DNA of 64,000 nt from contig NZ_CP070491.1 in the NCBI RefSeq assembly GCF_016925495.1, positions 62,001 to 126,000 on the forward strand, read 5' to 3'. The DNA comes from Methylococcus sp. EFPC2 (lineage in GTDB: Bacteria > Pseudomonadota > Gammaproteobacteria > Methylococcales > Methylococcaceae). Position 1 is the first letter of the stretch. The number at the start of each line of letters is the position of its first letter. This document shows, one piece after another, positions 4,516 through 44,499 of this stretch. The position numbers were made by a program, and so were the translations under genes. Below the pieces are notes generated by a model. That model ran no database searches. It saw only the letters and a program-made list of their open reading frames with translations, and had not been told where the DNA came from.

Positions 4516-7317
4516 TCAGTTCGAGGTGGGAGTGGGCTTCAGCCCACGACTCATCGCGGTCTGAAGACCGCTCCCACCAATGGACATCGCGGCCGCCCGC
4601 AGTTGACCCAGGGCTAGACCGCCATCGTTGGGCGGGATGAAACGATGGCGGTGTACTTCGAAACCGGACGATGCCAGGCGGGAGCCGACGAGTTCAGACA
4701 GCAGCCGGTTCTGGAACACGCCGCCGGTAAGCGCCACCCGCTCGAGGCCGACCCGCTCGGCGACGGCCAGGGCGGCTTCGGCCAGGGTGCGATGAAAACG
4801 CCCGGCCGAGGCCGTGATGTGGCCGGCCTTCGAGTCTTCCAGCAGGGGTGGGATCAGGGGCGTCCAGTCCACGGTCCAGCGAGGCTCGGCCTCATCCGCG
4901 CTTTCGATCAGCTCGTAAGGATAAGCTCCCTCGGATTCGTCCCGCTCGGCGGCGAATTCCAAAGCCATCGCCGCCTCGCCTTCGAAGCTGGTGGTCTGCT
5001 TGAGGCCGAGCAGGGCGGCGACGCCGTCGAACAGTCGGCCGACGCCGGAACTCAGGGGCGTGTTGATGCCGCGCTTGAGCATATGGGCCAGGGTTTTCAG
5101 GGCAGCCGGGCCGAAGTCGGCCACGGACGCGAGGTCGTCCCGCGCGAAGGCGGCTTCGCCCAGGGCGGCGTAAAGCAGTCCCAGGGCTGCCCGGCGCGGC
5201 TCGCGCACGGCTTGCTCGCCGCCGGGCAGGGGGAAGGGGCGGAAGCGGCCGATGCGGGTATAGCCGTCCGCCTCGATGCGCAGGAACTCCCCGCCCCACA
5301 GCGTGCCGTCCGGCCCCAGCCCCACGCCGTCCCAGGCGATGCCCAGCAGCGGCGGCTCCAGCCCGTGCTCGGCCATGCAGGACAGCACATGGGCGTAGTG
5401 GTGCTGCACCCGAACCAGGGGTATGCCCGTCGCTTCCGCCAAGCGGCTGGAGGCGTAATCCGGATGCAGATCGCAAGCGATGCGGTCCGGGTTGATGCCG
5501 AACAGGGTTTCCAGATCGGCCACGGTGCGCCGGTGGCTGTCGCGTGATTCGGCACTGTCCAGGTCACCCAGATGCTGGCTCAGCACGACACGCTCGTCCA
5601 ATGCGAGTGCCACGGTGTTCTTGAGGTGCCCTCCGACGGCGAGTACCGTGGCGTCGCCCCCCCTCCCCCTGGCAGGGGGAGGGCAGGGTGGGGGTGCCGT
5701 TTCCGAGGACAGACGCGAGTGGCAGGAGGTGTCAGGCGTATTGGGCGAGCTACCCCCATCCCAGCCTTCCCCCTGGGAGGGGGAAGGGGTGGAAAAGTGG
5801 GCTTCGGCGGCATGATCTGCTGTGGCTGGGTCGCTGAGATGCTGGCTCAGCACGATGCGCTCGTCCAATGTGAGCGCCACGGTGTTCTTGAGGTGGCCGC
5901 CGACGGCGAGCACCGTGGCGTCGGTCTCCCTCCCCCTGGCAGGGGGAGGGTAGGGTGGGGGTGCCGTTCCCGAGGACAAGCACGAGTTCCGGGAGGTGTC
6001 AGGCGTGTCGGGCGAGCTACCCCCATCCCATCCTTCCCCCTGGAAGGGGGAAGGGGTGGAGACGCGCGGGCGGGGCAGCTTGATGACAGGTTCGTAGCCC
6101 CGTGCGCAGCGCAGCAGCAGGGGCTCGCCGGCGATTTCCCGCGCCACGCTATCATCCAAGGCGCGCAGCACGGGGCGGTCGTGGTAGAGGAATGCGTCGG
6201 CGATGCCGCCCAGGCGGGCTTTGGCTTCCTCGAAGCTCGTGCAGATCGGTTCGCCGCTGCGGTTGCCGCTGGTGCAGACCAAGGGTGCGCCGAACTCCGC
6301 CAGCAGCAGATGATGCAGCGGCGTGTAGGCGACCATCACGCCCAGCCAAGGGTTGTCCGGGGCGACGGCTGCGGCGATAGTCCGGTTTTCCACGCGTCGC
6401 CTCAGCAGCACGATGGGGGCGGCGGCCGAGCTCAGCAGGCGGGATTCCACGTCCGAGATTTCGCAGATCGCACCGGCTTCCTCGAGTGACCCCACCATTA
6501 CGGCGAAAGGCTTGGCCGGGCGGGATTTGCGGCTGCGCAGTCTGGAAACGGCGGCCTCGTTGCCCGCATCCGCCAGTAATTGAAATCCGCCCAGGCCCTG
6601 CAAGGCGACGATGGCGCCGGATCGCAGAGCTTGCACCGTCAGTCCCAGGGCCTCTTCGCCGCCCGCCTGCAATCCCTCGGCGTCGTGTAAAGAAATCTGC
6701 GGCCCGCAGACCGGGCAGCACTGGGTCTGGGCATGGAAGCGCCGGTCGCCCGGGTCTTGGTATTCGGCGAGACAGGCCGGGCATAGCGGGAAGGCCTGCA
6801 TCACCGTGCGTTCGCGGTCGAAAGGCAGGCTCTGGGTGATGCTCCAGCGCGGTCCGCAGTCGGTGCAACTGATGAATGGATAGCGGTGGCGCCGGTTGGC
6901 CGGGTCGAACAACTCGGCGAGGCAGGCGGGGCAGGTCGCCGCATCCGGCGGCACGTAGACCGAAACCGGTCCTCGCGCCTCACTAAGCCGGACCCGGAAG
7001 CCTCGCTCGCCGGTGGCCGGCAGTTCGGCGGTCTGCAGGGATTCGATGCGCGCCAGCGGCGGCAGTTCCGCCGGCAGGCGGGCGAGGAAGGCCTGCAGGG
7101 CTGTGGCCGAGCCTTCCGCCTCGATGCTCACGCCGGTCGGCGTGTTGGCCACCCAGCCGGCGAGGCCCGCTTCGGTCGCCAGGCGGTAGACGTAAGGCCG
7201 GAAGCCCACGCCCTGAACCAGTCCGGTGATCTGCAAGGCGATCCGCCGGAGCACGACCGGTTCTGCCGCCGAGACGGCGGGAAAAGGGGGGCTCAAGCCG
7301 ATTTGACCGCCCGCCAT
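4516..7317 (-). CDS. hypF: Carbamoyltransferase HypF with in-frame REP-bearing tandem duplication
   Basis: HypF makes carbamoyl-AMP from carbamoyl phosphate and transfers the carbamoyl to HypE. The ATG at 7317 gives 933 aa, against about 750-780 for the family. Domains in order: acylphosphatase (GLVQGVGFRPYVYRLA), two zinc-finger pairs (CPACLAEL with CTDCGPR; CPACLAEY with CCPVCGP), a YrdC-like domain, and a Kae1-like domain (VQHHYAH, GIAWDGVGLGPDGTLWGGEF). The excess length comes from an insert at 5571-6060: two 89-residue units, each holding a Pro/Gly-rich stretch encoded by palindromic DNA plus a copy of the first Kae1-domain strand (LAVGGHLKNTVAL). The last residues (LKPTPTSN) are also encoded by a palindromic repeat. 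The start overlaps the nickel permease by 25 bases; a GTG at 7254 is an alternative. The reading frame is intact, but function with the insert is unproven. Confidence 0.9.
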   Translation of the reverse strand: MAGGQIGLSPPFPAVSAAEPVVLRRIALQITGLVQGVGFRPYVYRLATEAGLAGWVANTPTGVSIEAEGSATALQAFLARLPAELPPLARIESLQTAELPATGERGFRVRLSEARGPVSVYVPPDAATCPACLAELFDPANRRHRYPFISCTDCGPRWSITQSLPFDRERTVMQAFPLCPACLAEYQDPGDRRFHAQTQCCPVCGPQISLHDAEGLQAGGEEALGLTVQALRSGAIVALQGLGGFQLLADAGNEAAVSRLRSRKSRPAKPFAVMVGSLEEAGAICEISDVESRLLSSAAAPIVLLRRRVENRTIAAAVAPDNPWLGVMVAYTPLHHLLLAEFGAPLVCTSGNRSGEPICTSFEEAKARLGGIADAFLYHDRPVLRALDDSVAREIAGEPLLLRCARGYEPVIKLPRPRVSTPSPFQGEGWDGGSSPDTPDTSRNSCLSSGTAPPPYPPPARGRETDATVLAVGGHLKNTVALTLDERIVLSQHLSDPATADHAAEAHFSTPSPSQGEGWDGGSSPNTPDTSCHSRLSSETAPPPCPPPARGRGGDATVLAVGGHLKNTVALALDERVVLSQHLGDLDSAESRDSHRRTVADLETLFGINPDRIACDLHPDYASSRLAEATGIPLVRVQHHYAHVLSCMAEHGLEPPLLGIAWDGVGLGPDGTLWGGEFLRIEADGYTRIGRFRPFPLPGGEQAVREPRRAALGLLYAALGEAAFARDDLASVADFGPAALKTLAHMLKRGINTPLSSGVGRLFDGVAALLGLKQTTSFEGEAAMALEFAAERDESEGAYPYELIESADEAEPRWTVDWTPLIPPLLEDSKAGHITASAGRFHRTLAEAALAVAERVGLERVALTGGVFQNRLLSELVGSRLASSGFEVHRHRFIPPNDGGLALGQLRAAAMSIGGSGLQTAMSRGLKPTPTSN
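4525..4578. repeat. Palindromic repeat forming the 3' end of hypF
   Basis: Outer arms GGTGGGAG and CTCCCACC enclose two hairpins, TGGGCTTCAGCCCA and GCGGTCTGAAGACCGC. The hypF stop codon (4516-4518) lies just beyond it, so the repeat encodes the last residues of the HypF frame after the family's normal ending. Confidence 0.75.
5571..6060. repeat. 267-bp-period tandem duplication with REP-like palindromes inside hypF
   Basis: Two highly similar 223-bp copies lie at 5571-5793 and 5838-6060, offset by exactly 267 bp (89 codons), so the frame is kept. Each copy has about 90 bp of genuine hypF sequence plus two GC-rich palindromes, CCCTCCCCCTGGCAGGG-type and CCTTCCCCCTGG-type, about 80 bp apart. 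This looks like a REP-pair (BIME-like) insertion followed by duplication of element and flank. Confidence 0.85.
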
Positions 7318-41679: not shown

Positions 41680-44499
41680 ATGGACTACAAAGCCACGCTG
41701 AATCTACCCGCCACCGACTTCCCGATGAAGGGCAATCTGCCGCAACGCGAGCCGGAGCAGTTGGACATTTGGCGTGAGAAGGCGCTGTATTCCAAGATCC
41801 GCCAGGCGACCGAAGGGCGGACGAAGTTCATCCTGCACGACGGCCCGCCCTACGCCAACGGCGAGATCCACATCGGCCATGCGGTCAACAAGGTGCTCAA
41901 GGACATCATCGTCAAGAGCAAGACGCTGGCGGGATTCGACGCGCCCTATGTGCCGGGCTGGGATTGCCACGGTCTGCCGATCGAGCTGATGGTGGAGAAG
42001 AAGCTCGGCAAGGCCGGCGTGCAGATCGAGCCGGCAGAATTCCGCCGCGCCTGCCGGGCCTATGCGGAAGAGCAGGTCGGCCTGCAACGCGACGAGTTCG
42101 TCCGTCTCGGGGTGTTCGGCGATTGGGACAACCCTTATCTGACGATGAATTACGCCTTCGAGGCCGACATCATCCGCGCATTGGGCAAAATCTGTGCGAA
42201 CGGCCACCTGATCAAGGGCGCCAAGCCGGTGCACTGGTGTACCGATTGCGGTTCCGCCCTGGCCGAAGCCGAGGTGGAATATGAGAACAAGCGATCGCTG
42301 ACCATAGACGTGCGCTTCCGCGTGGTCGACGAGCATGCGGCGATCAAGCGCTTCCATCCTGCCGACGGGCAGGGCGGGCAAGGGCCCCTGTCCGTGGTGA
42401 TCTGGACCACCACGCCCTGGACCCTGCCGGCCAATCAGGCGGTGGCGCTCAATCCGGAACTCGATTATGCCGTCGTGCAACTGGAAGAATCCGGCGAACG
42501 CCTGATTCTGGCCGAAGCGCTGATCAAGGACGTGCTGGTGCGCTACGGCATCGAAAAATACCGCGTGGTCGCCTATTGCAAGGGCGCCGCGCTGGAAGGC
42601 CTGTTGCTGAAGCATCCTTTCCTCGACCGCGAGGTGCCCGTCATCCTGGGCGATCACGTGACGCTGGAAGCGGGTACCGGCGCGGTTCATACCGCACCCG
42701 GCCACGGCCAGGAAGACTATGCGGTCGGCCTCAAATACAAGCTGGCCGTGGAAAACCCGGTGGGCGACGACGGCAAGTTCCTGCCCGGCACGCCTTTTTT
42801 CGCCGGCCAGCACGTGATGACCGCCAATCCCCAGGTGGTCGAGGTGCTCAAGGATCATGGCGCGCTCCTGCACACCACCAGCATCGAGCACAGCTATCCG
42901 CATTGCTGGCGCCACAAGACGCCGGTGATTTTCCGCGCCACCCCGCAATGGTTCATCGCCATGGACGAGAACGGCCTGCGCGCCCAGGCGCTGGAAGAGA
43001 TCGCCCGGGTGCAGTGGCTGCCGGACTGGGGCCAGGCCCGCATCGAAGGCATGGTGGGCAACCGGCCGGACTGGTGCGTCTCGCGCCAGCGCAATTGGGG
43101 CGTGCCCATCGCCTTGTTCGTGCACAAGCAGACCGGCGAGCTGCATCCCGACACGCTGGCCTTGATCGAGCAGGTCGCGCAGCGCGTGGAACAGAGCGGC
43201 ATCGAAGCCTGGTTCCAGCTCGATCCCGCCGAGTTGCTGGGCGCGGACGCGGAAAACTACAGCAAGGCGAGCGATACGCTGGACGTCTGGTTCGATTCCG
43301 GCGTCACGCACCATGCGGTGCTGGCGCGCCGGCCCGAACTGCAATTCCCGGCCGATCTCTACCTGGAAGGCTCCGACCAGCACCGCGGCTGGTTCCAGTC
43401 CTCGCTGCTGGCTTCCGTGGCGATCAGCGGCCAGGCGCCTTACAAGCAGGTATTGACCCACGGTTTCACGGTCGACGCCCAGGGCAAGAAGATGTCCAAG
43501 TCCAAAGGCAACGTGGTCGCACCGCAGAAAGTGGTCAAAACCCTGGGCGCGGACGTGCTGCGCCTGTGGGTGGCGGCCACCGACTACCGCGCCGAGATGA
43601 GCGTCTCGGACGAGATCCTCAAGCGCACTTCCGACGTCTATCGCCGTTTGCGCAATACCGCGCGCTATCTGCTTTCCAATCTGAACGGCTTCGATCCCGC
43701 TACGGATCTCGTTTCCGCCGAGAGGCTGCTGCCGTTGGACCGCTGGGCGGTCGACCGCGCCTGGCAGTTGCAGCAGGACGTGATTGCCGCCTACGAAACC
43801 TACCAGTTCCATCTGGTTTATCAGAAGGTCCACCACTTCTGTTCGGTGGATCTCGGCAGCTTCTATCTCGACGTCACCAAGGACCGGCAATACACCGCCA
43901 AGGGCGACAGCCTGGCGCGGCGTTCCACCCAGACCGCCATGTACCATCTGGCGGAAGCCCTGACCCGCTGGCTGGCACCCATCACGCCGTTCACCGCGGA
44001 CGAAATCTGGCGCTTTCTGCCGGGCGCGCGCGCCGAATCCGTGTTCCTGAGCGGCTGGTACGAAGGACTCTATGCCCTGGATGACGCCGCGGCATTGAAC
44101 CGGGCCTATTGGGACGTCGTGCTGGCGGTGCGCGAAGCGGTGAGCAAGGAACTGGAAGTCTTGCGCGTGCGTGGCGAAATCGGCTCCTCCCTGGATGCCG
44201 AGGTCGAGCTCTTTGCAGCCCCGGCGCTCCACGAGCAACTGGCCAAGTTGGAAGACGAGCTCCGCTTCGTGTTCATCACCTCATATGCCAAGGTCTCGCC
44301 GGCCGCCGAAGCGCCGGCCGACGCCTTGCCGACCGAGGTCGAGGGGCTGCAATTGAAGCTCAAGGCGAGCGCACACACCAAGTGCGTGCGTTGCTGGCAC
44401 CATAGGCACGACGTGGGCGCGAACGCCGAGCATCCGGAACTGTGCGGCCGCTGCGTGGAAAACGTCGCCGGTGCGGGCGAAAGCCGCCGCTACGCCTGA
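41680..44499 (+). CDS. ileS: Isoleucyl-tRNA synthetase
   Basis: Class I synthetase (939 aa). The ATP-binding motif is [20 protein letters not shown] and the KMSKS loop is in [13 protein letters not shown]. The CP1 editing domain lies between ([17 protein letters not shown], with the [11 protein letters not shown] region). The C-terminal zinc site is [12 protein letters not shown] with CGRC. The ATG at 41680 is 17 bases after ribF. Full length. Confidence 0.98.

Follow-up and report, generated by a model that had tools for sequence, protein, structure and literature searches.

A tandemly duplicated pair of REP-like palindromes in the domain linker of HypF from Methylococcus sp. EFPC2, probably forming a near-neutral loop

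The window, by which we mean the whole 64,000-nucleotide stretch that was analysed, carries a hydrogenase gene cluster with a long hypF. At a threshold of E <= 1e-30, the 4.56-Mb genome has no HypF match other than this 933-aa protein. All five Pfam families of HypF were found above their cut-offs and in the domain order of HypF carbamoyltransferases, and the protein reaches 791 bits with the hypF equivalog model TIGR00143 (cut-off 466). The HypF_C match is split into two stretches, as would be expected for a partial duplicate. An earlier note on this DNA had suggested that the protein would have normal family length without the extra material, and this is nearly so: 933 minus about 139 aa compares with the 755–780 aa often seen in the ORFs of relatives that lack the insert. 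The features of the gene are as follows.

4516–7317, reverse strand: hypF, 933 aa, with Acylphosphatase, zf-HYPF, YrdC, HypF_C and HypF_C_2 (Pfam)
5571–5793, reverse strand: repeat copy lying downstream in the direction of the gene, 201/223 identical to 5838–6060
5794–5837, reverse strand: junction between the copies, 44 bp
5838–6060, reverse strand: repeat copy lying upstream in the direction of the gene, 201/223 identical to 5571–5793
5661–5787, no strand assigned: REP-like inverted pair 2, with type a at 5661–5683 (tail GCAGGGTGGGGGT) and a facing type b at 5765–5787, 104 nt from start to start
5928–6054, no strand assigned: REP-like inverted pair 1, with type a at 5928–5950 and type b at 6032–6054, 104 nt from start to start
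5659–6069, reverse strand: predicted disordered stretch in the YrdC-like/Kae1-like linker, aa 417–553, pLDDT below 50
5836–5913, reverse strand: upstream (extra) copy of the first hairpin of the Kae1 domain, aa 469–494, predicted disordered
5569–5646, reverse strand: downstream copy of the same hairpin, aa 558–583, predicted folded and read as the working copy

The genes adjoining hypF encode the hydrogenase small subunit, a cytochrome b, the HupD protease, HypA, HypB, HypD and HypE. All seven are open, and each exceeds at least one NCBIfam cut-off. The large subunit is full-length; its nearest model matches over residues 3–596 with 974 bits, which is below the cut-off of that model (1101). 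Its C-terminus reads DPCLACSTH followed by a tail, which we take to be of the kind that is cleaved at maturation. Given this tail and the open hydrogenase genes, selection for hydrogenase maturation probably persists.

A repeat search of positions 5300–6400 revealed one family of direct repeats with a start-to-start spacing of 267 bp. The earlier note had reported two 223-bp copies at exactly this offset. The offset is correct, but the copies are not identical: an ungapped comparison of 5571–5793 with 5838–6060 leaves 22 of the 223 bases different. Each copy combines two REP-like palindromes in inverted orientation (~127 bp together) with the hairpin that opens the Kae1-like domain. Identity varies along the copy, amounting to 75/82 in the strand-coding part, 35/36 in palindrome a with its tail, 45/54 in the spacer and 41/43 in palindrome b with its tail. 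The ORF is uninterrupted across both copies, with no stop codon and no frameshift, in agreement with the in-frame duplication that had been proposed. The site was also placed correctly at the boundary of the YrdC and Kae1 domains, where the first strands of the Kae1 domain occur twice (with VLAVGGHLKNTVAL...LSQHL beginning at both aa 469 and aa 558). Comparison of the flanks with 1000 shuffles fixed no sharp duplication breakpoints: the last 34 bases of the junction weakly resemble the left flank (20/1000 shuffles as good), and its first 24 bases show no clear likeness to the right flank (149/1000). With 10% divergence between the copies, neither a recent event nor an assembly error is likely, and the insert does not seem to be young.

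The palindromes themselves are CCCTCCCCCTGGCAGGGGGAGGG at 5661 and 5928 and CCTTCCCCCTGGGAGGGGGAAGG / CCTTCCCCCTGGAAGGGGGAAGG at 5765 and 6032. With up to 3 mismatches, both patterns match only the hypF sites within the window and never in 100 shuffles; the REP-like pairs that had been claimed for this gene are supported. Read from the sequence, each stem-loop has a 10-bp stem and a 3-nt loop. Type a, with covarying arms, has the form CCTCCCCCT-NNN-AGGGGGAGG followed mostly by G(C/T)AGGGTGGGGGT; type b, likewise covarying, has the form CTTCCCCCT-NNN-AGGGGGAAG followed by GNTGGGATGGGGGT. A genome-wide search with the two patterns (up to 2 mismatches, matches merged by hand) yielded 41 places in 4.56 Mb, four of them in hypF, and none with reversed patterns as a control. 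The majority (28 of 41) lie in one 24.5-kb block at C1:2189966-2214515 (2.190–2.2145 Mb) together with an exosortase gene. Seven facing a/b pairs outside hypF, picked by hand from the list, have start-to-start distances of 100–106 nt, so that nine inverted pairs including the two in hypF are regularly spaced, as in a REPIN or BIME. In view of this near-constant spacing, the inverted pair looks like a unit that spread. The stretches spanning the facing pairs elsewhere are 72–74% identical to those in hypF. As RNA, a single pair (5655–5800) folds at -81.5 kcal/mol (z -4.1, with 1/200 shuffles as good), and the whole repeat region has a z of -4.4. Within hypF the palindromes are read in several frames, giving peptides such as TPSPFQGEGW and PPARGR.

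Further in-frame palindromes were noticed in the same genome. A ClpB/ClpV-type AAA+ ATPase (L046:1149-3899, reverse strand) contains one palindrome of the hypF family (L046 2278–2300, which is C1:3332278-3332300 of the genome), translated as IPSPSQGEGQGGG between two AAA modules. An exosortase with DUF3485, the latter matched in two stretches (L043:5278-6942, reverse strand), has an in-frame palindrome of another type at 5744–5764 with the peptide SPHPGPLPEGEG. The 24.5-kb block (L043, L044) is partly organized in arrays with periods of about 154 bp and 292 bp.

AlphaFold2 modelled the protein with a mean pLDDT of 83.9 from an alignment of 59 HypF sequences (58 taken from 107 references, plus that of the window; duplicates or rows with inserts, 11 loci, had been left out of the references). 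Residues 417–553 are predicted to be disordered, a prediction that is favoured by the lack of an alignment partner for most of the insert. The upstream strand copy falls inside this stretch. The downstream copy is confidently folded in the native place, with strands at 558–560, 570–573 and 576–579 and mean pLDDT values of 95, 89 and 94 for residues 561–570, 571–580 and 581–590. Outside the loop, the predicted model matches HypF crystal structures. The full-length HypF 3vth_A was found by Foldseek with a TMt of 0.96; the matched stretches on either side of the linker run from 391 to 400 in 3vth (8 residues between) and from 412 to 556 in the HypF of the window (143 residues between).

The differences between the copies give a hint as to which of them is in use. 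The strand part contains seven codon differences, of which two are non-synonymous (A/T and V/I) and five synonymous, and the palindrome part contains eleven, of which nine are non-synonymous and two synonymous. With these small numbers the contrast is borderline (Fisher p 0.049), and it is equally compatible with one constrained copy or with two. At the A/T and V/I sites it is the upstream copy and not the downstream one that departs from the relatives (in an alignment of six relatives or in the 59 rows). A glycine right after the strand part, invariant at aa 584 among the 59 HypF rows, is replaced by serine in the upstream copy. Although the counts are small, this pattern suits a downstream copy under constraint and an upstream one that is freer to vary.

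To place the insert in its family context, as the earlier note had proposed, we aligned the HypF proteins of relatives. Of the 38 genomes of the family, 34 had a match; another 10 genomes of the order brought the total to 44. After removal of five partial or split proteins (G010, G020, G033, G046, G051), 39 full-length HypF remained; the relatives compared belong to other genera. An insert of at least 15 aa in the linker between YrdC and Kae1 occurs among these 39 only in the HypF of the window. The insert comparison as a whole covered 128 loci including duplicates from the same genome, 118 of them with a coverage of more than 650 residues. Among the best 80 of 374 named loci, some of them partial, the largest insert at the linker site is 17 aa long (L134, L137).

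We consider it probable that an inverted REP-like pair was inserted into the linker, that a 267-bp duplication followed, and that HypF still works, with a loop that is most likely near-neutral. The pair, consisting of two ~23-nt stem-loops with facing G-rich tails over about 127 bp, would have entered in frame between the YrdC-like and Kae1-like domains. A later tandem duplication of 267 bp would have taken in the pair together with the first Kae1-like hairpin, presumably through slipped replication or through unequal recombination at the palindromic hairpins. This order of events is suggested by the fact that each copy holds the complete pair, spaced alike, which implies that the pair was inserted before the duplication. 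Both steps would have preserved the frame without creating a stop codon. The product would be a HypF whose loop, about 137 residues long, is disordered; its Kae1 domain would be completed by the strand copy downstream, leaving the upstream one as a spare. Such an enzyme would still serve the hydrogenase encoded beside hypF, and judged from its sequence it has probably retained its activity in hydrogenase maturation.

The earlier note had left open whether the insert is a tolerated linker at the domain boundary or an early step to the loss of hydrogenase maturation. The insert is indeed large (about 139 aa), adjoins the strand with which the Kae1-like domain starts and was found in none of the other full-length HypF examined; all of this would suit an enzyme that is harmed by it and decaying. 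However, HypF retains all 67 columns that are invariant across 58 other HypF and deviates at 3 of the 138 columns with at least 90% conservation. The gene is free of stops and frameshifts, its product scores above the cut-offs of the five Pfam families and of TIGR00143, the adjoining hydrogenase genes are open, and the copies have diverged by 10% without a disabling change. Decay of hypF therefore seems unlikely, and the step towards loss that had been suggested finds no backing in these data. With the invariant residues kept, the hydrogenase genes open and the loop predicted to be disordered, the tolerated linker fits better.

The opposite idea, that the loop has become functional, appears quite improbable to us. 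Hairpins in the mRNA might slow ribosomes at the domain boundary, or a long linker might alter the transfer of the intermediate between YrdC and Kae1. The strong RNA fold of the pair and of the whole region would be consistent with this, as would the fact that the palindromes with their tails are better kept than the spacer and the strand part, and the palindromic inserts found in three other HypF of the order. Those three inserts are located at three other sites, however, and 35 of the 39 HypF do not have a palindromic insert. In addition, the differences in the palindrome part look unconstrained at the amino acid level, and the loop is predicted to be disordered. A gained function, implied when the pair was called domesticated, is not supported. 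Finally, the second copy might be absent from the chromosome. Assemblies often go wrong at tandem repeats with strong hairpins, but the copies differ at a tenth of their bases and both keep the frame, and the assembly consists of 3 contigs (completeness 100, main contig 4.44 Mb). We regard such an artefact as highly improbable.

In-frame REP dimers in genes are already known, and hypF adds another case. In the available part of a 2013 survey (PMC3733652), intragenic in-frame REPs, single, as dimers or grouped, are described in known enzymes of several species; over half of them are dimers or groups, some genes such as uvrA were entered twice, and the authors suggest that they form flexible linkers or loops. 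To call the hypF pair unusual was too strong in the light of this survey and of the palindromic inserts elsewhere in three other HypF of the order. As in the part of the survey available, the hypF palindromes are small and sit as a dimer inside a known enzyme. Unlike the REPs described there, they do not seem to have a fixed GTAG or CGTC end tag, and the pair was tandemly duplicated along with host coding sequence. In the accessible text hypF is not named, and Thauera REP arrays are reported to adjoin exopolysaccharide genes.

The 10-bp stem and 3-nt loop fall within the range given for the GTAG REP superfamily (stems of 5–13 bp, loops of 2–20 nt). Among 32 stem-loops with tail from six stretches of the genome, GTAG abuts the stem in 5 and ends the far side of the G-rich tail in 12 (both in 4), the rest being without it. 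Assignment to the CGTC superfamily was rejected, as none of the 32 tails has CGTC in its first 18 bases (tail end counted).

According to the part of PMC3733652 available, REPINs and BIMEs feature a RAYT (Y1) transposase with copies of the same REP at its flanks. As in BIMEs and REPINs (PMC2817692, PMC3116915, as far as the texts were available), the repeated unit here consists of two inverted REP-like stem-loops at near-constant spacing. It differs from those with a RAYT in its low copy number (41 places) and in the lack of a linked transposase: of six Y1_Tnp matches in the genome, five of them over the cut-off, none has a palindrome of the hypF family within 1.5 kb, and a RAYT source among these six was rejected. 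One Y1_Tnp match lies about 20 kb from the 24.5-kb palindrome block. Another, under the cut-off (L101, C1:1333533-1333901), has in its vicinity palindromes of a CCCTCTCCC type, which is not the type seen in hypF.

An older case than the 2013 survey is that of the palindromic elements of Rickettsia (RPE), described in the available part of PMC10969869 as palindromic elements of about 150 bp that lie in frame in unrelated genes and are thought to be compatible with the protein fold. A palindromic repeat in frame inside a conserved gene is also what we see in hypF, although the sequence family and the host are different. RPEs are said there to encode a conserved peptide, whereas the hypF-family palindromes are read in several frames. 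In the listed titles and beginnings of abstracts of open-access literature, we found no report of palindromes in hypF or of in-frame palindromes in Methylococcaceae. Nor did we meet, in the literature parts available, a duplication carrying host coding sequence or an hypF entered several times within one order.

The three other palindromic inserts bring the number to 4 of 39 full-length HypF, at four sites. In G012 (L080:2146-2274), an in-frame pair of another palindrome type (arms of 44 nt, 82% complementary) is located within the YrdC domain, at the position that corresponds to aa 311. In G047 (L102:1194-1316), a large insert lies in frame near aa 210 and contains types a and b with facing tails, plus other repeats. 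In G039 (L066:262-555), the Kae1 part contains a 294-bp insert in which inverted repeats of 23 nt span 202 bp. The repeat lists showed no strong palindrome in the inserts of G004 (L057, about 30 aa) and G009 (L079, 25–45 aa). In the HypF tree, which has long branches, also near the row of the window, the HypF of the window and that of G047 belong to two groups with 100/100 support each. Their insertions are thus best read as independent.

It is tempting to regard hypF as a repeated landing place for in-frame palindromes in this order, given four genera, four sites and two inserts of the same family in distant lineages, yet we think this rather doubtful. The type-a motif with its tail (up to 2 mismatches) was found in 4 of the 38 family genomes, 15 times in that of the window (G000), 5 times in G047, twice in G049 and once in G003. 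The latter two carry the motif without an insert in HypF, which speaks against a hot spot. As a control we used IleS, with 39 matches among 41 genomes and 35 full-length rows after removal of four partial or split ones (G008, G010, G022, G025); its net gain is at most 15 codons. Compared with it, palindromic inserts in HypF (4/39) give a p of 0.12 and any inserts of at least 20 aa (6/39) a p of 0.026, but IleS is a weak control, being essential, covering a smaller genome set and giving net length only. If hypF were indeed entered repeatedly, long loops might be tolerated there unusually well or even be favoured.

The gene can be looked upon as a natural linker-insertion experiment, in which a mobile-looking palindrome pair became coding at a domain boundary and then took host sequence along. 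Together with the palindromic HypF inserts of the three other genomes, it offers a set of cases in which to test how enzymes accommodate small repeats.

The genomes nearest to that of the window are not the same for all genes. By IleS (41692–44496), they are g12 with 81–83% identity and g4 with 80%; by the N-terminal part of HypF (4516–7317), they are g15, g13 and g6 with 58–60%, and g12 has 46–49%. The hydrogenase locus may have a history different from that of the rest of the genome.
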